From the IMG/VR virus record IMGVR_UViG_3300044825_000698, positions 35,045-99,044 of that record: a DNA stretch of 64,000 nucleotides; one strand, 5' to 3'. This document shows positions 43,774 through 58,098 of this stretch, piece by piece; positions within the stretch are counted from its first letter, which is position 1, and every line of letters starts with the position of its first letter. This stretch comes from a virus. The position numbers were made by a program, and so were the translations under genes. The notes under the pieces are model-generated. The model had not been told where the DNA came from and ran no database searches. It saw nothing but the letters and a program-made list of their open reading frames with translations.

Positions 43774-43776
43774 CCC

Positions 43777-43791
43777 GTCTCACTCTGAGAC
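43777..43791. repeat. 15-bp palindrome, copy 3 (intergenic)
   Basis: Centre CTC; four bases after the stop codon of the preceding gene. Confidence 0.85.
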
Positions 43792-43813
43792 ACCAACCAC
43801 CAAGGAGACCACC

Positions 43814-44086: not shown

Positions 44087-44088
44087 CC

Positions 44089-44103
44089 GTCTCATGCTGA
44101 GAC
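44089..44103. repeat. 15-bp palindrome, copy 4 (intergenic)
   Basis: Centre TGC; overlaps the base of stem-loop 2. Confidence 0.85.
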
Positions 44104-44131
44104 ACGGCTCCGTCGCAACCGGGGCTGTGTC
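44101..44131 (+). ncRNA. CAACCG stem-loop 2
   Basis: GACACGGC / GCTGTGTC outer stem and CCG/CGG inner stem around TCGCAAC. Followed seven bases later by a promoter module, consistent with a terminator-promoter junction. Confidence 0.5.
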
Positions 44132-44137
44132 CAGCAG

Positions 44138-44159
44138 TGCCACACCCACCTGTTAGCCT
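44138..44159 (+). promoter_or_regulatory. Promoter module TGCCACACC-N7-TAGCCT
   Basis: Directly upstream of the 44181 gene; same spacing as the copies at 48194 and 55461. Confidence 0.5.
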
Positions 44160-44180
44160 CTCTAATCGAAAGGAACCACC

Positions 44181-44909
44181 ATGCCCATCACACCGCCCAG
44201 CCCACGCCAACTCGACTACATCCGCACCCTCGTCACCGAGCGTGTCCAGGCCATCACGGCCCTGGCCGACGACGAACGCAAGCGTCTGCTGTCTCAGCCT
44301 GAGACAACCAGGGATGCGTCGAACCTGATCGACCGCCTGCGTCGACTGCCTGCCGACCCCAAGCAGGTCGACGCTGGTGCCCAGGCCAAGATCGACGGTC
44401 TCGTGGCCGTGCTCGATCAACTCGATGCCCGTGACCGTTCGTTCGCCAGCGACCTCGTACGGTCGTTCAGGCAACGGGGCGACCTGTCCGAACGCCAGTG
44501 GCCGTGGGTCGAACGGCTCACCGCCAAGGCCACGGCTCCCAAGGTCGAGCCTGCCGAGCCGGGCCTCTACATGGTCGACGGGAACATCGTCAAGGTGTAC
44601 CTGACGCAGAACCGCAGGCTCGCCACCAAGGTGCTCCACGCCAACGGCTCGCACGGCTCGTTCTCGTACTCACCGGGCTGGCTCGCCAAGGTGCGCCCCG
44701 AGCATCGGCTCACCGAGGAGCAGGCCCGTGCGTTCGGCAAGCAACACGGCTTCTGCTGTGCGTGTGCGCTCGATCTCGATGACGACCGTTCGCTGGCGGT
44801 CGGCTACGGCCCGGTCTGTGCCAAGCGGTACGGCTGGTTCTACCCATCGGCCAAGCAGGCCAGCGAGATGCTCAACCGTCCCGTCGATCTAGCAACCGTC
44901 TCAGCCTGA
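44181..44909 (+). CDS. DUF6011-like zinc-binding protein
   Basis: 242 aa. N-terminal helices (PSPRQLDYIRTLVTERVQAI), a central domain, and a C-terminal zinc-type motif FCCACALDLDDDRSLAVGYG followed by PVCAKRYGWFYP (G.C..C...L.D..S...GYGP.C). This pattern is found in small phage proteins near helicases. The stop codon lies inside a palindrome. Confidence 0.65.
   Translation: MPITPPSPRQLDYIRTLVTERVQAITALADDERKRLLSQPETTRDASNLIDRLRRLPADPKQVDAGAQAKIDGLVAVLDQLDARDRSFASDLVRSFRQRGDLSERQWPWVERLTAKATAPKVEPAEPGLYMVDGNIVKVYLTQNRRLATKVLHANGSHGSFSYSPGWLAKVRPEHRLTEEQARAFGKQHGFCCACALDLDDDRSLAVGYGPVCAKRYGWFYPSAKQASEMLNRPVDLATVSA
44291..44305. repeat. 15-bp palindrome, copy 5 (inside CDS)
   Basis: Centre GCC; read as S-Q-P-E-T in the 44181 gene. 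Confidence 0.85.
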
Positions 44910-44912
44910 GAC
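44898..44912. repeat. 15-bp palindrome, copy 6 (contains stop codon)
   Basis: Centre GCC; its TGA is the stop codon of the 44181 gene. Confidence 0.85.
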
Positions 44913-44933
44913 ACTCAACAAGGAGAACCACCA

Positions 44934-45218
44934 ATGACCATCATCGACACCAAGACCATCGTCGAAGACGATGCCATTCGTCTCTACTACGAACTGTCAC
45001 GCAAGTTCGGTTGGCAGGGGACATTCTTCACCCGTGGTGATGCCAGGGACTCGTGGGAGAACTACCACGAGCAGACCAAGCCGTTCACCGACGAAGTGTG
45101 GGAGACCGTGCGTCAGTCGTACTACTGGCGCAGGGCGTTGCCCGACAACCTGACAGCCGAGGGACTGAGCATCGTCAACGATGCTGTGTCCGAAGCCATC
45201 TACCCTGTCTCAGCCTGA
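44934..45218 (+). CDS. Unknown small protein
   Basis: 94 aa, helical with aromatic patches (RLYYELSRKFGWQGTFFT, QSYYWRRALPDN). Leader AAGGAGAACCACCAATG. Stop codon inside the next palindrome. No family recognised. Confidence 0.6.
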   Translation: MTIIDTKTIVEDDAIRLYYELSRKFGWQGTFFTRGDARDSWENYHEQTKPFTDEVWETVRQSYYWRRALPDNLTAEGLSIVNDAVSEAIYPVSA

Positions 45219-45221
45219 GAC
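45207..45221. repeat. 15-bp palindrome, copy 7 (contains stop codon)
   Basis: Centre GCC; its TGA ends the 44934 gene. Confidence 0.85.
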
Positions 45222-45240
45222 ACCAACGAAAGGAACAGCA

Positions 45241-45579
45241 ATGACCACCACCATCACCATTCCCGTCGAGATCGAGAACCTGCTCGACTCGATTCTGTAC
45301 GCCGGGGCGTTCTCGACTTACTCCTGGTATTCACACCTCGCCGTCGCCAATGACGGTCGCCGGGCCTCGGTCGGCATCTACACCAACGAGGGACACACGG
45401 CCACGGTCAGTCGTATTCTCGACGCTCGCACCCTGGCCGAGACCATCGAGCGCATCGTCAGTGAACGACTGCTCGGATGGCAGGATGTGCTCCACGGTGC
45501 TCGCAACGACGACTTCGATGCCAACTCGGCTGACACCGTGCTCCAAACCGCCGTGCTCGGCAAGGTGGTGTGGGGCTGA
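45241..45579 (+). CDS. Unknown small protein
   Basis: 112 aa, starting TTTITIPVEIENLLDSILY; alpha/beta with LAVANDGRRASVGIYTNEG. Next gene starts in its stop (TGATGG). No family recognised. Confidence 0.6.
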   Translation: MTTTITIPVEIENLLDSILYAGAFSTYSWYSHLAVANDGRRASVGIYTNEGHTATVSRILDARTLAETIERIVSERLLGWQDVLHGARNDDFDANSADTVLQTAVLGKVVWG

Positions 45580-45770
45580 TGGCAACGCTCACCAACATCG
45601 ACAAGCCCTGCCGTGGTCGTGACTGCGACCAGCAGGCCAGCGTCTACGCCATCGACCCAGCCCCCGATGGCTGGGGCGACTGGTACTGCGACGACTGCCA
45701 GCCCAGCAACTGGTGGGTCATCGACACCATCGAACGAGTGTCTCAGCATGAGACAGAGGGAGACAAGTAA
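45579..45770 (+). CDS. Zinc-ribbon small protein
   Basis: 63 aa. CRGRDC and YCDDCQPSNWW form a CxxxxC...CxxC zinc site. A palindrome lies in its 3' coding part (read S-Q-H-E-T). Overlaps both neighbours. Confidence 0.6.
   Translation: MATLTNIDKPCRGRDCDQQASVYAIDPAPDGWGDWYCDDCQPSNWWVIDTIERVSQHETEGDK
45740..45754. repeat. 15-bp palindrome, copy 8 (inside CDS)
   Basis: Centre GCA; 16 bp before the start of the 45770 gene. Confidence 0.85.
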
Positions 45771-45913
45771 TGGAAGCGAGTGATGTCGTTGCCCTGGACT
45801 GGCTACACAGCCTGTTTCAGGAACTGGAAGATCAGGGAGTGGAGTTGCCGATGGGCGACTACCACTATGTGTACGGACTCATTGAGAACATCAGAGACAG
45901 GGAGAGCAAGTAA
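45770..45913 (+). CDS. Very small acidic protein
   Basis: 47 aa, starting MEASDVVALDWLHSLFQELE. Start overlaps the previous stop (TAATGG) and its stop overlaps the next start (TAATGG). Acidic helix. No family recognised. Confidence 0.5.
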   Translation: MEASDVVALDWLHSLFQELEDQGVELPMGDYHYVYGLIENIRDRESK

Positions 45914-46140
45914 TGGAAACCAAGACCTACACCGTCGACATGACCATCCGTGTCTATGTCGAAGCAACCTCGGACGCAGAGGCACAGGCCAAGGCCGTGG
46001 ACCTCTACGCAGGGTGGTCGCCCGATGGCATCGGGCAGTACGGGAATGTCCTTTCCCGTGAAGGAATGTGGTACCTGTGCGAGCACGGCGACGAGACCGA
46101 TGCTCAGGTATGGGACCCCTACAACAAGGAGAGTGTCTGA
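45913..46140 (+). CDS. Unknown small acidic protein
   Basis: 75 aa, starts with a strand-helix pattern TYTVDMTIRVYVEATSDAEAQ typical of small phage alpha/beta proteins sometimes annotated as DpnD/PcfM-like. Part of the overlapping run of small genes. Function unknown. Confidence 0.55.
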   Translation: METKTYTVDMTIRVYVEATSDAEAQAKAVDLYAGWSPDGIGQYGNVLSREGMWYLCEHGDETDAQVWDPYNKESV

Positions 46141-46142
46141 AC

Positions 46143-46478
46143 ATGGGAGCCAACTTCGCCCACGACCTCGCCAACGAGGACTTCGGTCTGTCGTTGGAGC
46201 AGGCCGTCACCATCCACCTCACGGCCAACCATTACCCGGCTGTGCCGACGATCATGGTGCCGGTGTGTGTCCAGGCCATCACCTGCGCTGACGGTGGTGC
46301 GTGGGACGACCTCGTAACCCTGCCCGATGGTGTCTCATACCGAGACAGCAACAAGGCTCCGGCCTACGCCATCATCGAGGCGTACCACCTCGGTGCGTTC
46401 CTCAGCGACGACGAGGACTACAACGACTACGGGTGTGGTAAGTGGGGATGCCAAGAGTGCTACCCCGATGCGGAGTAG
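46143..46478 (+). CDS. Unknown small protein with C-terminal Cys pair
   Basis: 111 aa. Central alpha/beta (IMVPVCVQAITC) and the end GCGKWGCQECYPDAE with clustered cysteines. A degenerate palindrome is within the coding region. Last gene before the helicase promoter module. Confidence 0.55.
   Translation: MGANFAHDLANEDFGLSLEQAVTIHLTANHYPAVPTIMVPVCVQAITCADGGAWDDLVTLPDGVSYRDSNKAPAYAIIEAYHLGAFLSDDEDYNDYGCGKWGCQECYPDAE
46332..46346. repeat. 15-bp palindrome, copy 9 (degenerate)
   Basis: GTCTCA-TAC-CGAGAC; one mismatch in the right arm. In the 46143 gene. Confidence 0.5.
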
Positions 46479-46531
46479 TGACAAACTTCACAAAGAGGGT
46501 CCGTCATTATGCCCTCTAATGCCCCTACACT
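46478..46531 (+). promoter_or_regulatory. Early promoter module, copy 2
   Basis: GTGACAAACTTCAC (46478-46491), then TGCCC, 11 bp, TACACT. Drives the helicase gene. Confidence 0.55.
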
Positions 46532-46562
46532 GACCTCTGTTATCCATCAGAAAGGAACCACC

Positions 46563-48014
46563 ATGACCAGCGTCGAGGACTTCCTCGCCAACCTTGGCAA
46601 GACCACGCCAGCACCAGCACCTGTCGTGCGTCAGCCCGTCGCCGTGCCCACGCTCGCCCTGCCGTTGCTCCCGTACCAGCAGGAGGCCGTGCGGTTCGCC
46701 CTCGGTCGTAGCGAGTCGTACCTCGCTCTCGACATGGGCCTCGGCAAGACGGCGTGCGCCATCGCCATCGCCGTGGCCTCGCTGTCTCAGAATGAGACAC
46801 CGCTCGTCGTGGTGCCCCCGTCGCTCCGCACGAACTGGGTGCGTGAGTTCCACAAGTTCGCACCGAGCGTGCGTGTGGCCGTGCTCTCGGGCACCAAGCC
46901 CCACGCCCTGCCGACCGCCGATGTCTACATCATCGGTGACTCGACGGTTCAGCACTGGGCACCGTCGCTCGTGGGCCAGGTCGATGCGATCATCGTCGAC
47001 GAGGCGCACCGCCACAAGAACCCCGATGCCAAGCGTGCCAAGGCTCTCAAAGACATCGCTCGCACCCTGTCGGGCGTGCGTGTGCTGATGAGCGGTACGC
47101 CCACGCCCAACGGTCGCCACGCCGAGTTGCCTGCTCAGGTCGAGATACTCGGCCCGACCGCATGGGACGAGATCGGTGGCAAGGGCAAGTTCTGGAACCA
47201 CTTCTGCCCCAAGGTCGACCAGTGGTCCCGTGGCAACGCCTACACCGAGGAACTCCACGACCTGCTCCACGGTTCGTGGATGCTTCGCAAGCGTCGTGGT
47301 GAGGTGCTCGATCTCCCCAACAAGGGACGCTCGGGCCTCCACATCGAGGGCCGTGGCACCGCTGTCCGCAAGTACATCCAGGCCGAGGAAGACCTGATCT
47401 CGTTCCTCCACGGCGAGGGTCGTTCGTGGGAGGGCGCACAGAAAGCAGAGGCTCTCGTCAAACTCACCACGCTCCGTCATCTCGCTGGCGAGGCCAAGGT
47501 CGAGGCCGTGGCCGAGCACATCATCGACCTGCTCGACGAGCCGGGCGGTGTGTTCGTCGTGGCCGAGCACCACGATGTCATGGACAGGCTGGCCGACCGT
47601 CTGCTCAAACACGGTGTGGCAACCATCCGTGGTGGCATGACGGATGCTCAGAAGACCGAGGCCGTCGATGCGTTCACGAGCGGTAAGAAGCGTGTTCTTA
47701 TCGGTCAGGTCATCTCGGCAGGCGTGGGCCTCACGCTCCACGGCAACGGCATCAACCACCGTGTCGTGTTCGCTCAACTCCCGTGGACCCCGGCTGATCT
47801 TCGCCAGGCCGAGGACCGCCTCCATCGCATCGGGCAGACGCACGATGTCAGCGTCGAGGTGACCCTCTGCTCCATCGACGGTCGCTGGACCATCGACGAG
47901 CGTCTGTGGGGTCTGCTGGAAAGCAAGGCCGACTCGACTGGCCGTCTCATCGATGGCGAGGCCGAGGTGTTGCTCGACGACATCGTCGGAGGTGTGCTCG
48001 ACACCTACCGCTGA
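46563..48014 (+). CDS. SNF2-type helicase/ATPase
   Basis: 483 aa. Motif I DMGLGKT (57-63), motif II DEAH (146-149), motif III SGTPTPN (177-183) and C-terminal motifs V (VISAGVGLTLHG) and VI (RQAEDRLHRIGQ). Compact SNF2/SMARCAL1-like helicase as in many phages; likely acts on replication forks or in recombination. A palindrome inside encodes SQNET. Begins with leader AAAGGAACCACCATG. Confidence 0.9.
   Translation: MTSVEDFLANLGKTTPAPAPVVRQPVAVPTLALPLLPYQQEAVRFALGRSESYLALDMGLGKTACAIAIAVASLSQNETPLVVVPPSLRTNWVREFHKFAPSVRVAVLSGTKPHALPTADVYIIGDSTVQHWAPSLVGQVDAIIVDEAHRHKNPDAKRAKALKDIARTLSGVRVLMSGTPTPNGRHAELPAQVEILGPTAWDEIGGKGKFWNHFCPKVDQWSRGNAYTEELHDLLHGSWMLRKRRGEVLDLPNKGRSGLHIEGRGTAVRKYIQAEEDLISFLHGEGRSWEGAQKAEALVKLTTLRHLAGEAKVEAVAEHIIDLLDEPGGVFVVAEHHDVMDRLADRLLKHGVATIRGGMTDAQKTEAVDAFTSGKKRVLIGQVISAGVGLTLHGNGINHRVVFAQLPWTPADLRQAEDRLHRIGQTHDVSVEVTLCSIDGRWTIDERLWGLLESKADSTGRLIDGEAEVLLDDIVGGVLDTYR
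46784..46798. repeat. 15-bp palindrome, copy 10 (inside helicase CDS)
   Basis: Centre GAA; encodes S-Q-N-E-T. Confidence 0.85.
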
Positions 48015-48015
48015 T

Positions 48016-48030
48016 GTCTCAGCCTGAGAC
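48016..48030. repeat. 15-bp palindrome, copy 11 (intergenic)
   Basis: Centre GCC; one base after the helicase stop codon. Confidence 0.85.
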
Positions 48031-48049
48031 ATAACAAAGGAGAACCACC

Positions 48050-48190
48050 ATGCCCGAACAACTGATCTGTGACCTCTGTGGTGAGGAGACACACGGCGAC
48101 ACCTCCGAGATGTTCACCGTGCTCACCAACAAGGGCACACGCACCGAGCGTCATTGTTTCGACTGCGACCCACCGGACGAGGACGACTAA
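48050..48190 (+). CDS. Tiny zinc-finger protein
   Basis: 46 aa with CDLCGEETHG and HCFDCDPP: one four-Cys zinc site. Acidic end (PPDEDD). SD AAAGGAG. Confidence 0.6.
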   Translation: MPEQLICDLCGEETHGDTSEMFTVLTNKGTRTERHCFDCDPPDEDD

Positions 48191-48193
48191 CCC

Positions 48194-48215
48194 TGCCACA
48201 CCCCCCTGTTACCGT
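48194..48215 (+). promoter_or_regulatory. Promoter module TGCCACACC-N7-TACCGT
   Basis: Second copy; its 3' end overlaps the next palindrome by two bases, so a protein bound there could block transcription. Confidence 0.5.
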
Positions 48216-48228
48216 CTCATAGTGAGAC
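48214..48228. repeat. 15-bp palindrome, copy 12 (promoter overlap)
   Basis: Centre TAG; directly on the -10 end of the 48194 promoter module. Confidence 0.85.
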
Positions 48229-48230
48229 AA

Positions 48231-48256
48231 GACAGCGTGCCAACCGTGCGTCTGTC
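48231..48256 (+). ncRNA. CAACCG stem-loop 3
   Basis: GACAG / CTGTC plus CG/CG around GCCAACCGTG, in the 5' UTR of the 48284 gene. Confidence 0.4.
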
Positions 48257-48283
48257 CAAACCACCAAACAAAGGAGAACCACC

Positions 48284-48847
48284 ATGCCCAACCATTGTCT
48301 GAACTTCACTACCGTCACCGGCCCTGTCGATGACATCCAGCGTTTCTATGACGCTGTGCTCGTCCCCGATGAGGACATCAACGAGAACACCACCGACTGC
48401 TTCTGCCTGGCCCGTCTGTTCCCTATCCCTGAAGATCAGGTAGGCCGGTCGTACTGGTGGTGCGTCGAGAACTGGGGCACCAAGTGGGGCGACTACAACT
48501 ACCTCACGGGTGACGACGATGACATCTGGCAAGCCCCGGACACCCTGTCGTTCTCGTACCACACCGCCTACGCACCGTTCAGCGAGAACTTCTGGCAGAA
48601 AGTCACCAGCGACTGGCCGACGCTGTACTTCACCACCTCGTACCAAGAGGAGGGCATTGGTGTGCTCGGTGCGATAGCCGCTTCCGATGGCCTGGTCGAG
48701 GTGAACGACACCGAGTACCCCGAGTTCGACGGGCCGTTCGACGGCGACGAGTACCTCGACTTCATCGACGAGGTCGACCGTCTACGCAACGAGGCGTGCG
48801 ACACCGTCATCGAGATGCTCGACGCACGACTGGAGGTGAACAAGTGA
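48284..48847 (+). CDS. Api92/DUF1281-like ferredoxin-fold protein
   Basis: 187 aa. Starts PNHCLNFTTVTGPVDDIQRF (MPNxCxN...G signature), then ENWGTKWGDYNY and a helical acidic end. Similar proteins occur in plasmids and phages (Api92-like, recalled), with unknown role. Confidence 0.7.
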   Translation: MPNHCLNFTTVTGPVDDIQRFYDAVLVPDEDINENTTDCFCLARLFPIPEDQVGRSYWWCVENWGTKWGDYNYLTGDDDDIWQAPDTLSFSYHTAYAPFSENFWQKVTSDWPTLYFTTSYQEEGIGVLGAIAASDGLVEVNDTEYPEFDGPFDGDEYLDFIDEVDRLRNEACDTVIEMLDARLEVNK

Positions 48848-49092
48848 TGGCCGATTACAACGGATGGGCCAACCACGCCACATGGAATGTGGCCCTGTGG
48901 CTCAACAACGACGAGGGTCTGTACCGACTCGCCCGTGAGTACACCAGGCGTGCTCGCAATGTTCGGTACGAAGACTTCGTGAACCAGTACCTCGTCGAGG
49001 ACTCGTACGCCACGCCTGACGGTGTCGCCTGGCTCGGTGACGAACTCGACTACGACGCTCTCGACGAGATGCTCGTCGAGTTAGGAGAGTGA
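48847..49092 (+). CDS. DUF7249-like small protein
   Basis: 81 aa. Opens with NGWANHATWNVALWLNNDEG, a NGW.N..TWNVALW.NND signature recurrent in phage genomes. ATG overlaps the previous stop (TGATGG). Function unknown. Confidence 0.7.
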   Translation: MADYNGWANHATWNVALWLNNDEGLYRLAREYTRRARNVRYEDFVNQYLVEDSYATPDGVAWLGDELDYDALDEMLVELGE

Positions 49093-49094
49093 CA

Positions 49095-49427
49095 ATGACC
49101 AACAACTACACGACCGCTCTACGCCGTGTGCGAGAGCAACTGCCTGCCAGCGACCGCAAGTACACACGGGCGCAGATCAGAGAGGTCATCACCATCGCTG
49201 AGGCTCGCTACCCCGAGGCGCACAATGTCGACTGGCGTTGTGCGTTCTTGGAGGGTGTGCTTCTCGCTTACTCCGGTGCCATCGTCTTCGGTGGCGTGGC
49301 AACCGCCAGCCGTGGATGGAACGACGCTCTGTTCGCAGGGGTCGCACTTGGCGAGGCCATGTACGACGATGAGCACGAGATCATGTACGACGACGAGGGT
49401 TACGACTACTACGAGGAGGACCAATGA
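49095..49427 (+). CDS. Unknown small protein, acidic tail
   Basis: 110 aa; basic helical start (ALRRVREQLPASDRKY), hydrophobic middle (GVLLAYSGAIVFGGVATA) that could be a membrane or buried helix, and an acidic D/E/Y-rich end. Overlaps the next gene by 4 bp. Confidence 0.55.
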   Translation: MTNNYTTALRRVREQLPASDRKYTRAQIREVITIAEARYPEAHNVDWRCAFLEGVLLAYSGAIVFGGVATASRGWNDALFAGVALGEAMYDDEHEIMYDDEGYDYYEEDQ

Positions 49428-49702
49428 CCAACGAAGACTGGAAAGCCATCGCTGACGACATCTACCACGCCGTGTGGCACAACATCCACTGGTGTGAGTG
49501 CCGAGAGAAGTACGCCCTGCCCGAGTACCGGGCGTGGCGCAACGACACTAACGGGGCGATGCCCCCATCACCGATGTTCACCGACCTCTGCCCTCGATGC
49601 CGTGCGGTCGCTCGATACGAGCGAGTCGCCTGCTCCGAGGAGTGGAACAAGACGCTCGACGAGATCGAGATCAAAGCATTAGGAAAGGTAACCACCCGTT
49701 AG
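49424..49702 (+). CDS. Unknown small Cys-containing protein
   Basis: 92 aa. WHNIHWCECREKYALP and LCPRCRAVARYERVAC form two Cys pairs, likely a zinc site. ATGA overlap with the previous gene. Confidence 0.6.
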   Translation: MTNEDWKAIADDIYHAVWHNIHWCECREKYALPEYRAWRNDTNGAMPPSPMFTDLCPRCRAVARYERVACSEEWNKTLDEIEIKALGKVTTR

Positions 49703-49706
49703 ACAG

Positions 49707-49761
49707 TGTGACGAAGTTCACACAAAGCATCCACCACTTTGCCCAAACAGGGCCGTAGACT
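49707..49761 (+). promoter_or_regulatory. Early promoter module, copy 3
   Basis: TGTGACGAAGTTCACA, 17 bp including CAAAGCATCC, then TTGCCC, 11 bp, TAGACT. Best-conserved copy; promotes the run from 49814. Confidence 0.6.
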
Positions 49762-49781
49762 GAACCACACAGCAAGCAAGT

Positions 49782-49796
49782 GTCTCACCGTGAGAC
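49782..49796. repeat. 15-bp palindrome, copy 13 (5' UTR)
   Basis: Centre CCG; between promoter module 3 and the 49814 gene, as copy 1. Confidence 0.85.
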
Positions 49797-49813
49797 ACAG
49801 AAAGGAAACCACC

Positions 49814-50107
49814 ATGACACCCATCATCGACAAGTACGAGAACGAGTGCCAGTTGTACGCCGAGTCGCTGAGGTCCAACCTCACCGACATTCTCAACCGC
49901 TTACAGAGTCTGTTGGACGACACACGAGTGTTCAGCACCTTGGCTACCGCCCAGCGCATCGCCCGTAGTGCTGGGTCGTGTGGTCCCATCGGCTCTCTGT
50001 GGGAGTCGGCGGTGGCGAACGCCAGCCACCTCGTCGCTCTCCACAAAGTGCTGGAAGACCTGAAGACCGAGGCTCTCCTGCGAACCATCGAAGAACAGGA
50101 GGTCTGA
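49814..50107 (+). CDS. Unknown helical protein
   Basis: 97 aa, almost entirely alpha-helical (ENECQLYAESLRSNLTDILN, HKVLEDLKTEALLRTIEEQE). Could be a coiled-coil partner. No family recognised. Confidence 0.6.
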   Translation: MTPIIDKYENECQLYAESLRSNLTDILNRLQSLLDDTRVFSTLATAQRIARSAGSCGPIGSLWESAVANASHLVALHKVLEDLKTEALLRTIEEQEV

Positions 50108-50109
50108 CC

Positions 50110-50241
50110 ATGCCGAACCTGAGGACCGCTTACCTCGTCATGTGCGAGGAGTGCGGTCGAGTGTTCGACCTCGTCAACCAAGACGACGAGGCCGACTGGG
50201 CACTCGGCCATGACTGTGAAGACAACGAGGAGGAACAATGA
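50110..50241 (+). CDS. Tiny Cys-containing protein
   Basis: 43 aa with VMCEECGRVFDL and GHDCED, a likely small zinc-binding module. Ends ..EEEQ and overlaps the next start (ATGA). Confidence 0.55.
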   Translation: MPNLRTAYLVMCEECGRVFDLVNQDDEADWALGHDCEDNEEEQ

Positions 50242-50369
50242 CCAAGCCGAAGATCAACACCTTCCCGGCCACGCCGGGGTACATCGAATGGTGTGAGGCC
50301 AACGGCCTCGACCCCAACGACGAGAACAACCAAGACTCATACTCCGAGTGGAAAGCGAACAACCGATGA
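50238..50369 (+). CDS. Tiny protein of unknown function
   Basis: 43 aa, starting MTKPKINTFPATPGYIEWCE, overlapping both neighbours by 4 bp with SD AGGAGG upstream. No family recognised. Confidence 0.55.
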   Translation: MTKPKINTFPATPGYIEWCEANGLDPNDENNQDSYSEWKANNR

Positions 50370-50626
50370 CCATCATCAACGACCTGACCTGCCTGCGCTG
50401 TGGGGCGCACGGACCTGACATCCAGTTCCCGATCTTCCCACTCTCGGGCGCACCGTTTGGCTCGGTCTGCGTGGACTGCGATCACCAGTCACCGTGGTCC
50501 GAGCGACCGCTCGCCTGCGTCGACTGCGAGATCGAACTCGACGAGACCGAGGCGTGGGGCAACCGCAAGTACGGCGACCCTCGATGCGAGGACTGCCACC
50601 AACAGAACGAAGGAGACAACGAATGA
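50366..50626 (+). CDS. Multi-CxxC zinc protein
   Basis: 86 aa with four CxxC pairs (CLRC, CVDC, CVDC, CEDC), enough for two zinc ribbons. No extension domain. The strongest case in a series of small Cys-pair proteins here. Confidence 0.65.
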   Translation: MTIINDLTCLRCGAHGPDIQFPIFPLSGAPFGSVCVDCDHQSPWSERPLACVDCEIELDETEAWGNRKYGDPRCEDCHQQNEGDNE

Positions 50627-50835
50627 ACCCGACACAGACCAAGCACTTCGACATCACCATGGACAAGCCTGAGGCGTACATCGTGTCCCTCAAAGTCAAC
50701 GGTGAGGCCGTTGTCCTAGTGAGGCTTGAGAGAAACGCAGACGGCTCTCTCGATCTCAATGTGTTTGAGACGGCGAACGACGACATGGAGATCGCCAACA
50801 CCTACCCCGAGTTCTTTCAGGAGGTGACCGCATGA
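50623..50835 (+). CDS. Unknown small protein
   Basis: 70 aa, strand-rich (YIVSLKVNGEAVVLVRLERN) with a short helix at the end. Coupled by 4-bp overlaps on both sides. Confidence 0.55.
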   Translation: MNPTQTKHFDITMDKPEAYIVSLKVNGEAVVLVRLERNADGSLDLNVFETANDDMEIANTYPEFFQEVTA

Positions 50836-51062
50836 ACAAGGCCGTGCGTTACTGGGTCAGACGGCTCGTTATCTCGTTCCCGTTATGGCTCGCCCTGGTT
50901 CACGAGACCGACACTCGCCGGTTCGACAACGGACAGAGAGTGTTCGGTGACCACCAGGGCATGGTCCTGTGGGGACTGATGTTCATCCTGCTATGGGTCT
51001 CACTCGATCTGTATGTTCAGGACATGAGAGCGTCTCAGCGTGAGACAAAGGAGGAGCAATGA
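50832..51062 (+). CDS. Small membrane protein
   Basis: 76 aa. Two hydrophobic segments (VISFPLWLALV; GMVLWGLMFILLWVSLDLYV) with basic flanks. The only evident membrane protein in the right arm besides the 57902 peptide. A palindrome is embedded near its end (S-Q-R-E-T). Confidence 0.65.
   Translation: MNKAVRYWVRRLVISFPLWLALVHETDTRRFDNGQRVFGDHQGMVLWGLMFILLWVSLDLYVQDMRASQRETKEEQ
51032..51046. repeat. 15-bp palindrome, copy 14 (inside CDS)
   Basis: Centre GCG; ends 12 bp before the start of the 51059 gene. Confidence 0.85.
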
Positions 51063-51307
51063 AAGAGAACTGGTACGACAAGTGGGAGGCCGACTACCTC
51101 GGCTCAGGCGACGAGCGCACAGTCTTTGAGCAGTGGTTCGTTGATACCCGTGGCAAGCAGTACGCCGACGACTCGTCGGACACAGACCTGCTCAACGAGT
51201 TCCGAGACACCCAGGTATGGGTGGACTCGTTCCTCGACTGGGCGTTCGTAATGGAAGCAGACCACCGCATCGAGCAATACGCAGAAGAAACAAGGAGCAA
51301 CCAATGA
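51059..51307 (+). CDS. Unknown small acidic protein
   Basis: 82 aa, aromatic and acidic (MKENWYDKWEADYLGSGDE). Overlaps both neighbours. No family recognised. Confidence 0.6.
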   Translation: MKENWYDKWEADYLGSGDERTVFEQWFVDTRGKQYADDSSDTDLLNEFRDTQVWVDSFLDWAFVMEADHRIEQYAEETRSNQ

Positions 51308-51705
51308 CACACCTAATCATCCATCCCGGTACGGGAACCATCGTCAACTCCGACGAGTGCTGGTTCATCGACGCTAACGCTCTCCCCGAGGGCGTGGACA
51401 TCGAAGACCTCGCCTCGACCGAGTTGTTCGACATCCCCGAAGACATCCCGGCCACACCTAACACGGGGTTCTCTTACTCGGTGTCTGATCTCGATAAAGA
51501 CATCGAGGACGACATCTTCGTGAGCGACCACATCGAGTGGCTCAAAGCCCTGCCAGCCCACGAGCGTGAGTTCATCATTCAGAACGCCTTTCAGATCATG
51601 CTGAACCAGGTCGACTTCTGGAATGAGTGGTGGGACGCTCTCCGCTACTCGATCAGTCTGTCGAAGCGCATCAGCGAGACATCAGTCGAGGAGGAGCCGT
51701 TCTGA
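51304..51705 (+). CDS. Unknown acidic protein
   Basis: 133 aa. Acidic N-terminal half (VDIEDLASTELFDIPEDIP), helical C-terminal half. Last gene of the 49.8-51.7 kb unit. Confidence 0.6.
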   Translation: MTHLIIHPGTGTIVNSDECWFIDANALPEGVDIEDLASTELFDIPEDIPATPNTGFSYSVSDLDKDIEDDIFVSDHIEWLKALPAHEREFIIQNAFQIMLNQVDFWNEWWDALRYSISLSKRISETSVEEEPF

Positions 51706-51866
51706 GACAACCAAGTGTGGTGAGGGGGTACGGCCTGTCAAGCCGTGTTCTCAAACTGCGTCGAAGTAGCGAAGCGTGATGCGAGCCGAGCCGAGGGCCA
51801 TCCCCGAGGCGATGAAGCCAGCCAGCCAGCCGAGTGAAACAGCAGGCGCAACCTCACCAACGTCAT
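51706..51866. other. Intergenic stretch with a small hairpin
   Basis: No gene supported. Contains ACGGC-CTGTCAA-GCCGT (about 51731-51750) and tandem GCCGA/GCCA steps (GAGCCGAGCCGAG, CAGCCAGCCAGCC). Precedes stem-loop 4. Confidence 0.4.
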
Positions 51867-51905
51867 GCTGGACGGGCAAGCGTTCCAACCGTGCGCTCGT
51901 CCAGC
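51867..51905 (+). ncRNA. CAACCG stem-loop 4
   Basis: GCTGGACG / CGTCCAGC, perfect 8 bp with an inner GCG/CGC step around TTCCAAC. It abuts promoter module 4. Confidence 0.55.
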
Positions 51906-51959
51906 GTGACAAACTTCACACAAAGCATCCGCCCGGTTTGACCAAACACCCCCTATCCT
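51906..51959 (+). promoter_or_regulatory. Early promoter module, copy 4
   Basis: GTGACAAACTTCAC then CACAAAGCATCC, TTGACC, 10 bp, TATCCT. Shares an identical TTCACACAAAGCATCC stretch with copy 3. Drives the AAA/VWA pair. Confidence 0.6.
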
Positions 51960-52000
51960 GGATAACAAGCAAGTCAGTCACACAAGAAAGGACCACCACA

Positions 52001-53251
52001 ATGACCACCGCCAAAGCCCTCCGTACCGGACTCCCGGTCATCATCAACGCAGGCCCGTACAAGGGTCTCAATGCCATCGTCGTCGATGCCACCGTCTTCC
52101 CTGACGGCCACGAGCATCAGCGCAAGGTCGTCGTCGACATCGACGGTGTCGGCCAGTCGTACATCATCCCCAAGCAACTCGACCTCGTCGGTCACGTCCG
52201 TCCGTCCGTCGCCCCGGTCGTGCCGTCCGTCCCCCGTGTCGAAGTGTCTCAGCGTGAGACGGTCTCGATCTCCGTCCCCACGAAGATCACCTCGCTCGAC
52301 GACCCGGCTCTCGACGAGTACCGCCCCCAGCGCAAGGGTCTCCTGCGTGAGTACGTCTCTCGTACGCTCGCTGGCGGTCACAAAGACATCGAGGTGCTGG
52401 CCTCGTACTGGGAGAACCGCCGTGACGGTTACGCCACCAACGTCGGCCTCGTGGGCGACACGCAGTCGGGCAAGACGATGCTCGTCGAAGTGATGTCTCA
52501 CGTCATCGCCAAGAAGATGGGCCTCAGCAAGCCCCTCCCGGTGTTCACCCTGTCGGGTTCGTCGGCCATCACCGACCACGACCTGTTCGGTCAGTACCGC
52601 CCGACGCTCGTCGATGGCGAGGAGCGCATCGTGTGGATGGAGGGTCTCGTTGCCCTCGCCTGCCGACTCGGTGGCATCCTGTACCTCGACGAGGTCAACG
52701 CCATGCCGGGCAACGTCACCTCGGCTCTCCACCCGGTGCTCGACGACCGTCGCCAGTTCGTCAACATCCGCAAGCCCGTCCCCGATGGACACGGCGGTTA
52801 CAAGCCCGAGGTCGTCAATGTCTCGACCGACCTGTGGGTGCTGTGTACCTACAACCCCGGCTACGCAGGCATGGCCAAGACCAACGAGGCGTTCGCCAAC
52901 CGCTTTGAGTGGCTCACGTGGGATTACGACGAGGAAGTCGAGAAGCGTCTTATCAAGTCCCCGGCCATCCGTCTGCTCGGCCAGGCTCTCCGTGTCGCTC
53001 GTGACAACCGAGCGGTGACGACTCCGGTCGGCACCTCGGCTCTCCAGCGACTGGAGCGCAACATCGCCAGCCTCGGCCTCGACTACGCCGTGTGGTCGTT
53101 CCTCGGTCAGTTCACCAGCAAGGCCGAGAAAGCCAAGGTCCAGTCCATCATCGACGAGCGTTCCATCTACGCAATGCTGGAAGCCGAGGTCGACGCAGAG
53201 TCCCGTGTCGAAGATGTCCAGCCGACCGACGAACCCATCAACTCACTCTGA
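52001..53251 (+). CDS. MoxR-type AAA+ ATPase (CobS/NirQ-like)
   Basis: 416 aa. N-terminal KOW-like strand region (GPYKGLNAIVVDA, VGQSYIIPKQL), Walker A GDTQSGKT (152-159), Walker B GGILYLDEVN (224-233), sensor 1 in TYNPGYAG (about 286-293) and an arginine finger candidate at FANRFEW. Such ATPases remodel or insert metal into partners; the partner is the VWA protein encoded 17 bp downstream. A palindrome is within the gene (encodes SQRET). Confidence 0.9.
   Translation: MTTAKALRTGLPVIINAGPYKGLNAIVVDATVFPDGHEHQRKVVVDIDGVGQSYIIPKQLDLVGHVRPSVAPVVPSVPRVEVSQRETVSISVPTKITSLDDPALDEYRPQRKGLLREYVSRTLAGGHKDIEVLASYWENRRDGYATNVGLVGDTQSGKTMLVEVMSHVIAKKMGLSKPLPVFTLSGSSAITDHDLFGQYRPTLVDGEERIVWMEGLVALACRLGGILYLDEVNAMPGNVTSALHPVLDDRRQFVNIRKPVPDGHGGYKPEVVNVSTDLWVLCTYNPGYAGMAKTNEAFANRFEWLTWDYDEEVEKRLIKSPAIRLLGQALRVARDNRAVTTPVGTSALQRLERNIASLGLDYAVWSFLGQFTSKAEKAKVQSIIDERSIYAMLEAEVDAESRVEDVQPTDEPINSL
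52246..52260. repeat. 15-bp palindrome, copy 15 (inside AAA CDS)
   Basis: Centre GCG; encodes S-Q-R-E-T. Confidence 0.85.
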
Positions 53252-53267
53252 TAAGAAAGGGATAACA

Positions 53268-55403
53268 ATGCCTAAGCAGAAGATAGACAGCGAGATCGTC
53301 AAGGCTCGCAACCGTGCCCGGTCACACTTCCGCCGGGAGTCCAAGGCATACGAGGAGCGGTCATTGGCCGAGGCCCGTGAGGCTCTCAACCGTGCTCGCT
53401 ACCGTGCCACGCTCAACAAGGACGAGGTCAACCGTCAGGCCAGCATCGCATCGTGGGTGACCTCGATGTCGATTCCGGTCCTCGCCTCGCTCGACATCAC
53501 TCCCGAGATGGATGTCAATGTCATGGACGACCCTCGCATGGTCGCCAACGGCATCACGGCATCGGGCTGGACCGACTTCAGCAAGATTCACGTCCGTGTG
53601 TCGGACAAGTTCTACAACGAGAACGACCCGGCTCAGTTGTCCCGGCTCATCGCTCTCACCAAGGGCTTGATCTACCACGAGGCTGGTCACATCCTCTACA
53701 CCATCCCGTACCCCCAACTCGTACAGCGTGCGTCGGAGGCTGGCTACAAACTGTCGCCCTTGCCCGGTTCTTTGCTCGGCCCGACAGGAAGCATCACCAT
53801 CCAGGACGAGTACGAGTACAAGTGGGTGTGGAACCTGCTGGAGGACCAGCGCATGGAGTGCGCCGTGGTTCGTACCTCTCCGATCATCGAGCGGTACTAC
53901 CGAATCGTCGTGCTCGATGCGGTGATTCGTAGCATCCCGGCAGAGCAGGCGCACCGTGCGTGGCCGTTCATCACGGGTCGGTCTTACCTGCCCCTATCGG
54001 TCCTGAACGATTACCGCCGTAAGGCCGTCCAGTACGCACACGACAACGATCTCGTCGACGCTCTCGTCGCCATCGACCAAGGCGTGCGTGACTACAAGCG
54101 TGCGAAGACCGAGGTCGACATGGTCAAGGCTGTCGAGAAAGTCACCCCGGCCCTGCGCTTGTGGCTCAAACAAGAGCGTGCCAACGGCGGTGGCGACGGT
54201 GGCAGTGTGGATGACCACGGCCATCAGAGGCGACGTGAGCCGGGCCGTATTAGTCCCGACTCGTCAGCCACCGAAAGCGGTGAGGGCTGGGGTATTCCGA
54301 CTCCACCGACCAAGGCCGATGACCGTCAGGACGACGACAACAACCAGGGCGGTGGCGAGGTGACTGACTCGACCAGCGACACCCAGCGGTACGACAGCGC
54401 ACCGTCTCAGGGTGAGACAGACGAGGAGTCGGATAACGAGACATCCAATAACAAGTCCGATGGCAAGGGTCAGCAGGCCGATGGTCAGGACGACACGACC
54501 GACGATGACACCGACGAGTCGGATGAGTCGGACGAGCCGGGCACTGGTGTGGGGGCGTACGGAGACAACGCCCCCATCCTCGATGGCATCGAACAGACGG
54601 GTCTCAATGACCTGCTCGACGATCTCATCGACAACGTGGTGACCAACGATCAGATTCACGACCTCGTGACTCAGGTCAATGACTCACTGCGCCGTGGTGT
54701 GCCTCGTGACCCGAGCCTGTCCCCGATGCCTACGGAACTGCTCGCTCAGGTCGAGGAGGTCCGTGCTGGGATGCTCAACACCCTGGCTCCTCTCGCCGTC
54801 CAGGCCGACCCGGCATGGCGGTTCCGTCAGGAGTCGGGCGTGTTCGACCCGGTGACGTTCATGTACCGTGAGCCGGGCGACACCGACTACTGGGTCGACC
54901 TCGACGACACGGGTGCGACGGGTCACGACCTGGCCGTGTCAGTCATCCTCGACGTGTCGTACTCGATGTCCGAGAACACCGACGCTCTGTCGGTCGGTGC
55001 GCTCGGCATCCGTATGGCGTGCGACGAACTCGACATCCCGTGTACCGTCAGCACGTTCTCGGACAACGGGTACCTGTACTTCGATGCGACCGATAAGACG
55101 GAGCCTCTCCGTGTGTCGGCCCATGGCGGTACCGAGCCGACCGAGGCGTTGGAAGACCTGCCCAACCAGCGTTACGGCAAGGCCCGTCACCTCGTGGTCG
55201 TGTTCACCGATGGTGCGTGGAGCCACTCGGCTCCGATGTTCTCTCAGGTGCGTGAGCCTGGGATGTACATCCTGGGTGTCGGGTTCGGTCTCGGAGTGGC
55301 CGAGGCCATCGCCCAGCGCAAGCCCGACGTGGCCGTCAAGATCGAGTCGGTGTCGCAGTTGCCCGCCGAGGTGACCAAGGCACTCATCGGTTATCTCGTC
55401 TGA
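53268..55403 (+). CDS. CobT-like VWA protein with metallopeptidase-type HEAGH motif
   Basis: 711 aa. Residues 1-60 are basic and helical; HEAGH at 137-141 (LIYHEAGHILYT) and NLLEDQRME (189-197) resemble the zinc site found in CobT/peptidase-type VWA partners. About 305-430 is a long acidic linker (runs of D, E, G, S). The C-terminal VWA domain has MIDAS residues DVSYSMS (562-568) and TDG (about 643). Together with the AAA ATPase it mirrors the MoxR-VWA pairs that insert metals or dismantle complexes. SD AAAGG before the ATG. Confidence 0.85.
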   Translation: MPKQKIDSEIVKARNRARSHFRRESKAYEERSLAEAREALNRARYRATLNKDEVNRQASIASWVTSMSIPVLASLDITPEMDVNVMDDPRMVANGITASGWTDFSKIHVRVSDKFYNENDPAQLSRLIALTKGLIYHEAGHILYTIPYPQLVQRASEAGYKLSPLPGSLLGPTGSITIQDEYEYKWVWNLLEDQRMECAVVRTSPIIERYYRIVVLDAVIRSIPAEQAHRAWPFITGRSYLPLSVLNDYRRKAVQYAHDNDLVDALVAIDQGVRDYKRAKTEVDMVKAVEKVTPALRLWLKQERANGGGDGGSVDDHGHQRRREPGRISPDSSATESGEGWGIPTPPTKADDRQDDDNNQGGGEVTDSTSDTQRYDSAPSQGETDEESDNETSNNKSDGKGQQADGQDDTTDDDTDESDESDEPGTGVGAYGDNAPILDGIEQTGLNDLLDDLIDNVVTNDQIHDLVTQVNDSLRRGVPRDPSLSPMPTELLAQVEEVRAGMLNTLAPLAVQADPAWRFRQESGVFDPVTFMYREPGDTDYWVDLDDTGATGHDLAVSVILDVSYSMSENTDALSVGALGIRMACDELDIPCTVSTFSDNGYLYFDATDKTEPLRVSAHGGTEPTEALEDLPNQRYGKARHLVVVFTDGAWSHSAPMFSQVREPGMYILGVGFGLGVAEAIAQRKPDVAVKIESVSQLPAEVTKALIGYLV
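54404..54418. repeat. 15-bp palindrome, copy 16 (inside VWA CDS)
   Basis: Centre GGG; encodes S-Q-G-E-T, in the acidic linker. Confidence 0.85.
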
Positions 55404-55422
55404 TGGTGGTAAGGCGGTGTAT

Positions 55423-55455
55423 GGACACGGCGACGATCAAACCGTGGTCGTGTCC
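55423..55455 (+). ncRNA. CAACCG-type stem-loop 5
   Basis: GGACACG / CGTGTCC, 7 bp around GATCAAACCGTG. 20 bp after the VWA stop codon; probably terminates its transcript. Confidence 0.5.
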
Positions 55456-55460
55456 AACAC

Positions 55461-55482
55461 TGCCACACCGGTCGGGTACAAT
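55461..55482 (+). promoter_or_regulatory. Promoter module TGCCACACC-N7-TACAAT
   Basis: Third copy with the best -10. It starts the 55533-57909 gene run. Confidence 0.6.
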
Positions 55483-55532
55483 AATCAACGAAACAGGTTG
55501 TGAGACCTCAACAAGAAAGGTAAAGTGAAACC

Positions 55533-55892
55533 ATGGAAACCACCAACATCACCGAGATCGCAGTCCGGTATCTCAAGACCAGGGAGACCGTCGAGTCAGC
55601 CTCCATCGCCCTGGCCGAACTGGACAGCCAACTGAAGGAGTACTTCCAGCAGACTGGCAACGAGTCCATCGAAGTGGATGGTCGCAAGATCAGTGTCGTC
55701 CACAACAAGCGTCGATCATTCGACATCACCGCTCTTCGGAATCTCGTCAGCCCGGCGATGTTCCGCAAGATCACCGAGCCGTCCGTCAAGACCAAGTTGT
55801 GGGATTCGGCTGTCGCTCTCGGTGAACTCGATAGCAAGGTCATCAAGAAAGTGGAAGCGACCACGTTCTATGACCAACTCAAGGTCAAGTAG
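55533..55892 (+). CDS. Unknown small helical protein
   Basis: 119 aa. Starts with a long helix (TRETVESASIALAELDSQLKE) and a small beta piece (ESIEVDGRKISVVHNKRR). Resembles helical subunits of small phage DNA-binding proteins; no family recognised. Confidence 0.6.
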   Translation: METTNITEIAVRYLKTRETVESASIALAELDSQLKEYFQQTGNESIEVDGRKISVVHNKRRSFDITALRNLVSPAMFRKITEPSVKTKLWDSAVALGELDSKVIKKVEATTFYDQLKVK

Positions 55893-55901
55893 GGAGGCTG
55901 T

Positions 55902-56048
55902 ATGTCAGCAACGACATACGAGTGCCCTGCCTGTCACCAGCGCATAACGGTCTACGTACCGCTGGTGGAGAATCCGACCTGTACCCGTCACACGGGTGGG
56001 GGTCGCCAAATGAAACCAGTTACAGACAACAAGGAGAACAACAAGTGA
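55902..56048 (+). CDS. Small zinc-finger protein
   Basis: 48 aa with YECPACHQRITVYVP and CTRHTGGGR, a C2CH-type zinc site. GGGAGG upstream of the ATG. Confidence 0.6.
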   Translation: MSATTYECPACHQRITVYVPLVENPTCTRHTGGGRQMKPVTDNKENNK

Positions 56049-56437
56049 GCATGGACATCAAGACCATTGTCATTCTGACTGTCGAGGGTCGCATCCCGGC
56101 AGAAGAAGGACTCAACCTCATCGCACAAGAGTGCGGTGTTACCACCGACAGCCTCATCCAGGCTCTGACATCGAGCGAGACGGTCACGACCCTCTCGGCC
56201 CGTCGTTGGACGATGGAAGACGACGGAACCGTCATCAAGATGTGGGCCTCGGGAGCATCAGCCGGGACCATCGCACGTGCGTTGGCCCGGACCCGTAACA
56301 GCGTGTCACAGCGTGTCCACTACCTGCGTGGTCAGGGCCACGACTTGGAGAAGCGTGAGACCGCAGGCATGAACCGGATTCGTCAGAACCGCACTAACCG
56401 CAGTGGGGCAACTCAACTGAAGTTGCCTGGGTTCTGA
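56045..56437 (+). CDS. Myb/SANT- or GcrA-like DNA-binding protein
   Basis: 130 aa, GTG overlapping the upstream stop (GTGA). Residues about 55-100: RRWTMEDDGTVIKMWASGAS followed by AGTIARALARTRNSVSQRVHYL is a helix-turn-helix of the Myb/SANT-GcrA type. N-terminal helical part, basic C-terminus. It is one of the few right-arm candidates for recognising the 15-bp palindrome or GTGAC sites. Confidence 0.7.
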   Translation: MSMDIKTIVILTVEGRIPAEEGLNLIAQECGVTTDSLIQALTSSETVTTLSARRWTMEDDGTVIKMWASGASAGTIARALARTRNSVSQRVHYLRGQGHDLEKRETAGMNRIRQNRTNRSGATQLKLPGF

Positions 56438-56502
56438 GAACACGACCTGAGCACGTCGAGAAACTGCTCACCAACAACCAGTCCCTAACAAGGAGAATCA
56501 CC

Positions 56503-56931
56503 ATGAGATACCTACCGAACATCCACGAAGAGACCCGTAAGGCCGATAAGGAAGCCATCGCAACGGTTCTGAAGACCTTTGCCGATACTCCTCTGACAGC
56601 AGGCGATGTCACCGCACTCCTCAAGGACGTGCCGAAAGAAGTGGTCAACGGACTGCTGTGGCGTATGGCCAACAACAAGACCAAGTGGCCCAACATCAAG
56701 CGCACCAACTATGCGTCTTATGTGTGGGACAGCAAGGCCCGTCCCCCTCGTACCCCTCGTCCTGCCAAGCACAAGACCGTCGTCAAGCACAAGGTCGAGC
56801 AGATTCGTCCTGTCGTCGAGGCTCCTGTCGCCAAGCCTGCCGAGTGGGAGACCATCACGACCATCGAGGACAAGATCATCATTCGTCGCCACGACGGCAC
56901 GGTGTGGGTCGCCAAGCCCCTGTCGGTCTGA
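56503..56931 (+). CDS. Winged-helix-like protein with basic linker
   Basis: 142 aa. First 70 residues helical with a wHTH-like arrangement (TPLTAGDVTALLKDVPKEVV); basic Pro/Lys linker (RPPRTPRPAKHKTVVKHK); C-terminal strand pair (TTIEDKIIIRRHDGTVWVAK). A DNA-binding role is plausible but not proven. Confidence 0.55.
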   Translation: MRYLPNIHEETRKADKEAIATVLKTFADTPLTAGDVTALLKDVPKEVVNGLLWRMANNKTKWPNIKRTNYASYVWDSKARPPRTPRPAKHKTVVKHKVEQIRPVVEAPVAKPAEWETITTIEDKIIIRRHDGTVWVAKPLSV

Positions 56932-56932
56932 C

Positions 56933-57136
56933 ATGACCTACACCGAGTTCATCATCAACGCCACGCAGTACTTCGGTGCTCATCGTCGGGAGATGCGGTT
57001 CGGTCAGGCGGTCTACAACTGCCTGGCCACCGCTCGCCCCGACATCGCATCGCAGATCGTCGACACACCACTCGACCCGTTCCACAAGAACAGTGTGAGT
57101 GACGACGTGTGGCAGTTCATCAAGGAGAAGTGGTGA
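56933..57136 (+). CDS. Unknown small protein
   Basis: 67 aa, starting MTYTEFIINATQYFGAHRRE. Similar in size and sequence style to small actinophage proteins; unknown function. Confidence 0.55.
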   Translation: MTYTEFIINATQYFGAHRREMRFGQAVYNCLATARPDIASQIVDTPLDPFHKNSVSDDVWQFIKEKW

Positions 57137-57342
57137 CCAAGAAGATCGACCCTCTTACCGGGGCTAACTACGACATCGAACTCAGGATGTACATCCTGTA
57201 CCATGGCCTCACGGTCGACGAGGCTGTCGAAGTAATGAAAGTGACCGAGTCGTACAAGGCTCGGGATGAGAAGTTCAACCAAATCACTCAGAGAGGAAAC
57301 GCAGATGAAAATGCCATTCATAAGACGTTCAAAGGCGAGTAA
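57133..57342 (+). CDS. Unknown small protein
   Basis: 69 aa, GTG start overlapping the previous stop (GTGA). A single helical domain (NYDIELRMYILYHGLTVDEA). No family recognised. Confidence 0.5.
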   Translation: MTKKIDPLTGANYDIELRMYILYHGLTVDEAVEVMKVTESYKARDEKFNQITQRGNADENAIHKTFKGE

Positions 57343-57658
57343 GGCGATAAGCCACCTCATACAAACGCACATCAATGTCGTTCGTGAAATCTTCATGGTG
57401 ACTGACACCATGTCCGACGTACTCATGTCCCCGGCGGTCGACGAAGCGTTTCGTAATGCTCTCGCTACCACCGGTGGAGACCCGACAGCATCGGACGATC
57501 TTTACGAGGCTTATCGCCTCTTACGTCAGAAGCACTACGTCATCGTTGATACTTACGACTCTCTCCTTGAGGAGCAGGTCATCGACGAGATCGTTCACGA
57601 AGAGACCAGGGACATCGACCGAGAGATTCAGCGGTTCTTGTCCGTCGGAGGTCTGTGA
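57305..57658 (+). CDS. Unknown helical protein
   Basis: 117 aa from MKMPFIRRSK (GAGAGG upstream; an earlier in-frame reading has no SD). Basic start then continuous helices with acidic residues. Overlaps the previous gene by 38 bp. Confidence 0.55.
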   Translation: MKMPFIRRSKASKAISHLIQTHINVVREIFMVTDTMSDVLMSPAVDEAFRNALATTGGDPTASDDLYEAYRLLRQKHYVIVDTYDSLLEEQVIDEIVHEETRDIDREIQRFLSVGGL

Positions 57659-57909
57659 TGAACCTACGAGACCTGCCCGACTTCAACGATCTCTTCACTC
57701 GGTTCCGCTCTGACTACGACTACGAGAAGTCGTTCCAACGGTGGTGGGCCGAGGTGGAGGAGTCGTTCCAAGACATCCTCGACGACAAGGGTGCCGACTG
57801 GCTCAAGCACATCATCCGCTGTTTCTGGGAACAGTCGCCAATGGCACTCCGCATCCTCGATGATCAGTTCTTCGACGAGATTCGTAAGTGGCGTGATAGC
57901 CATGCGTGA
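57658..57909 (+). CDS. Unknown acidic helical protein
   Basis: 83 aa; W-rich amphipathic middle (FQRWWAEVEESFQDILDD). Start in the previous stop (TGATGA). No family recognised. Confidence 0.55.
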   Translation: MNLRDLPDFNDLFTRFRSDYDYEKSFQRWWAEVEESFQDILDDKGADWLKHIIRCFWEQSPMALRILDDQFFDEIRKWRDSHA

Positions 57910-57964
57910 GGTGCTGTGTATCATCGGCCTCATCGCCGTCATTCTTTACTGGTCACGCCAGTAA
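57902..57964 (+). CDS. 20-residue single-membrane peptide
   Basis: M-R-E-V then a hydrophobic stretch (LCIIGLIAVILYW) and SRQ. Overlaps the previous gene by 8 bp. Its size is at the limit of what can be supported; no SD is separate from the previous gene. Confidence 0.3.
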   Translation: MREVLCIIGLIAVILYWSRQ

Positions 57965-57973
57965 CAGGCGTAA

Positions 57974-58098
57974 GGAGAACATCGCAGGGACCGGCCCTCT
58001 TCCTTTCTGTGGTCGGCGTTCTCCTCCCTCTCCCATTCGTAGTCCCTCGTGGCGCACTTTCCATTTCTTCAGTGCTGACACGAGGTAATGGGAGAGGG
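57974..58098 (+). ncRNA. Nested-stem structured element
   Basis: First stem GGAGAAC/GTTCTCC (57974-58024) with inner GACC/GGTC. Second: CCCTCTCCCATT / AATGGGAGAGGG (12 bp), inside it CCTCGTG / CACGAGG (7 bp), inside it GCACT / AGTGC (5 bp) with a 12-base loop. No gene fits the region. It may be a small RNA or a strong terminator. Confidence 0.5.

Follow-up and report, generated by a model that had tools for sequence, protein, structure and literature searches.

A MoxR-type ATPase and an adjacent VWA protein with a putative zincin domain in a tailed phage: relation to described phage pairs and to viral cobST

In group 2.2 jumbo phages, MoxR ATPase genes adjoin genes for metallopeptidase-vWA proteins, and a role in virion assembly together with peptidolysis has been proposed for them (Iyer et al. 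2021, PMC7824862). Other known examples are AAA+/VWA pairs in halovirus Hardycor1 and a pair of MoxR type in phage 0305phi8-36. In Acidianus two-tailed virus (ATV), the MoxR protein p618 and the VWA protein p892 have been linked to tail development (PMC4124505). For NorQD, twisting by means of a finger inserted in the pore has been described (PMC13036017). Viral cobST pairs, in haloarchaeal viruses and cyanophages, were reported to be widespread and were interpreted as cobaltochelatase, the peptidase label of cobT being considered an error ("mistakenly annotated as a peptidase", PMC8651126). Several studies of viromes and phages list viral cobST among the auxiliary metabolic genes for vitamin B12.

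The present work describes a pair of this kind in a tailed phage. Because MoxR and metallopeptidase-VWA pairs have already been described in jumbo phages (PMC7824862), the architecture is not new; the comparison below concerns its conservation, its possible function and its name.

The gene pair and its surroundings

The window, that is the whole stretch of DNA analysed, comprises 64,000 bases, from 35045 to 99044 in a virus record of 99,044 bases. On its plus strand, a gene for a MoxR-class AAA+ ATPase of 416 amino acids (P0001; 52001..53251, ATG at 52001) adjoins a gene for a putative zincin-VWA partner of 711 amino acids (P0002; 53268..55403, ATG at 53268), whose start codon lies 16 nt downstream of the ATPase stop codon. 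Both reading frames are found where the original prediction had placed adjacent genes for an ATPase and a 711-residue VWA/HEAGH protein. The pair belongs to a block of plus strand genes, opposite to the structural genes on the minus strand. GC content of this block (42000-58000) is about 0.60, compared to about 0.51 across most of the remaining window, and its codon use is distinct as well: a model trained on the block rejects most other genes. Megablast of the gene pair against phages gave no match.

The promoter module originally ascribed to the pair finds no counterpart, as a scan of 51500-55700 for sigma-70-type sites returned none. Upstream of the pair, a strong RNA hairpin with 16 continuous base pairs and an inner stem is predicted on the plus strand at 51862..51910 (-33.6 kcal/mol, z -6.9). 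It belongs to a recurring type: hairpin-type repeats with AACCG in the loop occur at 43478, 44101, 48221, 51866, 55424 and 58106, about 50-135 nt before gene starts; four of them were folded (z from -3.9 to -6.9), and they are candidate terminators, regulators or processing sites. Another repeat, the 15-bp palindrome GTCTCA-N3-TGAGAC, has 16 exact copies in the 99-kb record, the reversed control having 0. Fifteen of them are concentrated in a 12-kb stretch (42651-54404) and one is at 60984, with none in the first 77 kb of the record. Many copies are intergenic and directly precede the ribosome site, and two (52246 and 54404) lie inside the genes of the pair. The palindrome is a candidate operator or RNA hairpin; in scanned viral contigs it was present mostly in single copies, with no clear relative, and it is not repeated in the relatives.

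Several other features of the phage were recorded. Six perfect DnaA boxes (TTATCCACA, all on the minus strand) are packed within 163 bases (41931-42093), 0.5 being expected per whole window; the cluster is located at the junction of the minus and plus strand gene blocks and is likely a replication origin. There are two separate genes for SNF2-type helicases, both assigned to phrog_62, one at 46554-48014 of the window and the other at L017:15919-17463. A lone tRNA-Ile gene with anticodon TAT is present on the minus strand (32302-32376), and 25937-28468 encodes a long protein of the tail fibre, with numerous collagen-like matches.

Domains of the two proteins

P0001 contains an AAA_5 module at residues 148-302 (53.6 bits against a Pfam cut-off of 22, E 3.2e-14), with Walker A GDTQSGKT at residues 152-159 and Walker B GGILYLDEVNA. 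These features, combined with the adjacent VWA gene, are those of the MoxR class. The protein also matches phrog_249, labelled "porphyrin biosynthesis" (E 3.5e-20). Of the CobS/NirQ type proposed at first, the MoxR-type AAA_5 domain with both Walker motifs stands, but similarity to CobS does not go beyond the generic AAA level. The N-terminus of P0001 (52001..52192, plus strand, approximately residues 1-64) looks like a KOW domain in the near family, judging from profile matches. The best PDB match of a profile built from 15 ATPase N-termini was the NusG KOW structure 1nz9 (E 0.0016), almost all other matches being likewise NusG, SPT5 or L24-type proteins; a KOW motif was seen in 6 of 10 ATPase relatives, every time with a score below the Pfam cut-off.

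P0002 itself has no match to any Pfam family. Its full AlphaFold2 (AF2) model is confident for the N-terminal domain and most of the VWA domain, which are connected by a low-complexity acidic linker (54177..54590, plus strand, approximately residues 304-441) with pLDDT below 50, disordered in the model. The finger region and the VWA domain (54732..55400, plus strand, approximately residues 489-711) were recognized by VIA-align and hhalign comparisons. The VWA fold is clear in the model and among Pfam-scanned relatives, and the MIDAS is complete: D562-x-S564-x-S566 (DVSYS, 562-566), T622 and D648 are unchanged in 46 of 46 aligned partners. When the VWA model was compared by VIA-align, the MIDAS domain of Rea1 scored best (Z 18.3), the VWA domain of NorD being among the other matches with Z 15.4; the domain superposes on NorD, with low model confidence in the region 511-552. 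Since both Rea1-MIDAS and NorD are partners of AAA+ proteins, these matches count in favour of a motor with its VWA partner. The acidic linker, the VWA domain and the intact MIDAS of the original prediction are thus all borne out, including the fold, which it had singled out for checking.

The N-terminal domain of P0002 (53415..54194, plus strand, residues 50-309) carries the HEAGH motif at residues 137-141 (53676..53690, plus strand). Further motif residues, E192-D193-x-R195-x-E197 and R238, were recognized in the alignment. H137, E138, H141, E192, D193, R195, E197 and R238 are invariant in all 46 aligned partners, despite the fact that the N-terminal domains of relatives are merely 21-33% identical to that of P0002. 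Downstream of the invariant HExxH, E192 and E197 are candidates for the acidic third ligand that a gluzincin-like site would have. Relatives match phrog_459, labelled "peptidase".

Because Foldseek with the full P0002 model probed only the VWA domain, the N-terminal domain was modelled separately (AlphaFold2, 40 sequences, pLDDT 92.4). Its VIA-align neighbours of top rank are mainly zinc metallopeptidases, namely puromycin-sensitive aminopeptidase, ERAP1, YbeY, LTA4H, Spartan, Wss1, selecase, Ste24 and BepA. Their Z scores, up to 7.7, are about the level usual for unrelated folds, the identities of the hits nonetheless agreeing with one another. Foldseek with the same model found no hit at E below 0.001 (best E 0.14). 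With Z scores modest and Foldseek non-significant, the assignment is drawn from the fold neighbours and the invariant HExxH jointly, and the modelled domain is probably zincin-like. The zinc-metalloprotease-like HEAGH site predicted originally agrees with this, at the modest scores given.

Conserved pairing, proposed mechanism and target

Relatives were collected from 15 viral loci found by ATPase search, and further ones by scans with ATPase and partner alignments. When viral contigs were searched directly with P0002 by itself, nothing matched since the partner diverges fast; its relatives were traced by way of the conserved ATPase first, and by alignment afterwards. The ATPase alignment had no match in genome_contigs, which indicates no cellular or prophage copy of the ATPase at that sensitivity. 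At all related viral loci long enough to hold both genes, ATPase and partner are side by side, and the single locus devoid of the partner (L016/L055) stops inside the ATPase gene. The commonest order is ATPase followed by partner; the reverse is found at L071 and L073-L076, and a divergent arrangement at L072, L077, L080, L081 and L083. Preservation of the pair despite such rearrangement is stronger evidence of joint function than one fixed order would be.

The joint conservation by which the original prediction was to be judged is thereby confirmed, and it extends to other actinophages. Among annotated ones, the pair is present in Gordonia phages GMA6, Gray, DalanDe, GMA3 and GMA7 and in Brevibacterium phage Cantare. 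The pairs GMA6 61/62, Gray 72/73, GMA3 88/87, GMA7 72/71 and Cantare 55/56 resemble the present one in adjacent ATPase and VWA genes and in HExxH. They differ in sequence (identity at most about 30%) and, in GMA6, Gray and Cantare, in lacking the KOW-like domain of the ATPase.

Starting from the observed domains, invariant residues, constant pairing and modelled folds, we propose that both genes encode one ATP-driven machine that remodels and cleaves a viral or host target, and we put the probability of this reading at about 0.6. The MoxR-class ATPase would form an AAA+ ring; by analogy with NorQD and Rea1, the VWA domain of the partner would dock on it with its finger in the pore, and the MIDAS would hold the target protein. 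The zincin-like domain, placed beside the ring on its long acidic tether, would cut the target segment opened by the motor, delivery of metal being less likely. Proteolysis is suggested by the invariance of the catalytic glutamate of HExxH.

That the pair remodels a host or virion complex, as supposed from the start, is plausible. As target, a viral assembly protein (as in ATV) has about the same likelihood as an early host factor: tail-sheath co-occurrence leans towards the virion, and the early-type gene neighbourhood with the KOW-like domain leans towards the host. Each of the two corresponds to a narrower, and tentative, form of the remodel-and-cleave proposal.

According to the first, the pair may act as a chaperone-protease of virion assembly on a structural protein (such as one of the contractile tail), which it would both remodel and process. 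Such a role has been proposed for group 2.2 jumbo phages (PMC7824862) and outlined for ATV p618/p892. Of 23 records with the pair, 19 contain the tail-sheath family phrog_23; among 12 viral control records, each 50 kb or longer, 1 does. These counts ignore kinship, so that shared ancestry may explain them. Three of the four sheath-negative records are contigs of 51-60 kb, possibly fragments. However, the pair stands in the plus strand block apart from the minus strand structural genes, it adjoins replication genes in Cantare and HVTV-1, and distant versions are carried by the sheath-less GMA3, GMA7 and HVTV-1.

The same surroundings speak for the second form, an early machine of host takeover, which might unfold and cut a host protein, perhaps of the transcription or translation apparatus, after docking through the KOW-like N-terminus. 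Phage peptidases acting on host proteins provide a general precedent (discussed in PMC7824862). Besides the early-type neighbourhood, the position of the pair in the GC-rich plus strand block, near the cluster of DnaA-box-like sequences and opposite to the structural genes, is consistent with this possibility, as are the near-family ATPases with a KOW-like domain. Nevertheless, the Gordonia and Brevibacterium relatives lack that domain, and its scores stay under the curated cut-offs.

An HExxH sequence can also be a metal site without proteolysis. HExxH-type sites bind metal and both NorQD and CobNST are metal inserters, so the motor could instead help to insert metal bound at HExxH into a metalloprotein in a NorQD-like manner. 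We consider such a metal-insertion chaperone unlikely: in zincins, the glutamate of HExxH is the catalytic base and not a ligand, and its invariance in 46 of 46 partners points to hydrolysis. H137, E138 and MIDAS D562 are sites whose mutation would separate the protease, chaperone and chelatase readings.

Comparison with CobST and other AAA+/VWA systems

The cobaltochelatase reading draws on real homology. Finger and VWA domain of CobT are homologous to the C-terminal part of P0002 (hhalign probability 96%, E 2.9e-9; match to CobT 9uka, E 2.7e-9), the CobT finger motif is common to the P0002 family, and CobT likewise has an acidic linker. CobS/CobT and NorQD, named as comparators in the original prediction, are valid mechanistic models for the AAA+/VWA part, but CobST was overstated as a guide to function, because the N-terminal domain of the partner is not that of CobT. 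The CobT N-terminal domain, PF06213, was not found in this virus or in Pfam-scanned relatives, and hhalign of the N-terminal domains of CobT and of the P0002 family gave a probability of 0.5% and no alignment. CobT and NorD N-terminal domains are not among the structural neighbours of the P0002 domain either, an omission that carries no weight. None of 13 cellular CobT proteins has HExxH. CobT EQARVE does fit a motif common to both N-terminal domains, E-[DQ]-x-R-x-E; this might go back to a common ancestor, but the profile comparison gives no support.

The haloarchaeal virus HVTV-1 is a member of Druskaviridae, a family assigned CobST. Its "von Willebrand" protein has HECGH and a MIDAS-type DRSSS and aligns with the N-terminal domain profile through the WN..ED motif. 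In the 40-89 kb span of cyanophage P-SSM2, no pair is annotated. CobN was found in none of 13 viral records (this virus and 12 relatives), a host CobN being possible. This virus has no ribonucleotide reductase, and of 27 other records only 2 have one. That the pair supplies host CobN with its CobS and CobT and boosts cobalamin for nucleotide synthesis, as published for viral cobST (PMC8651126), is thus highly improbable in spite of the CobT-like finger and VWA domain, given the missing PF06213, HExxH in HVTV-1 and not in cellular CobT, the absence of CobN from the 13 records, the scarcity of ribonucleotide reductase, and the merely generic likeness of P0001 to CobS.

The viral "cobST" cluster has the same two-gene AAA+/VWA layout; on the present evidence, "peptidase" is a better label for its partner protein than CobT. 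Counts of cobST as B12 auxiliary metabolic genes may consequently be wrong, as the partner appears to be a zincin-VWA protein and not CobT both here and in one archaeal-virus member. One might go further and suppose, rather speculatively, that the widespread viral "cobST" of bacterial and archaeal tailed viruses is one ancient class of ATP-driven metalloproteases with no cobalamin role, in which a ring and MIDAS grip feed a tethered zincin, the KOW-like domain aiming it here at the transcription or translation machinery.

Among other systems, NorQ/NorD shares with the present pair a MoxR ring and a linker-tethered VWA domain which superposes with Z 15, the comparison covering the VWA part; its target cNOR would not be expected in phages. 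ATV p618 and p892, compared by published description, are viral MoxR and VWA proteins which bind each other and differ in having no peptidase domain (PMC7824862). In the jumbo-phage pair, a MoxR ATPase likewise adjoins a vWA protein with an N-terminal metallopeptidase domain (PMC7824862). P0002 has the corresponding N-terminal HExxH domain, zincin-like in its model, and a C-terminally fused VWA domain with MIDAS. The present pair, likened to it by described architecture, differs in coming from a 99-kb phage and in the KOW-like domain of its ATPase. It is a real and well-conserved instance of the already described phage MoxR/metallopeptidase-VWA pairs, to which it adds useful evidence on the naming problem, against the cobaltochelatase reading for the present family.
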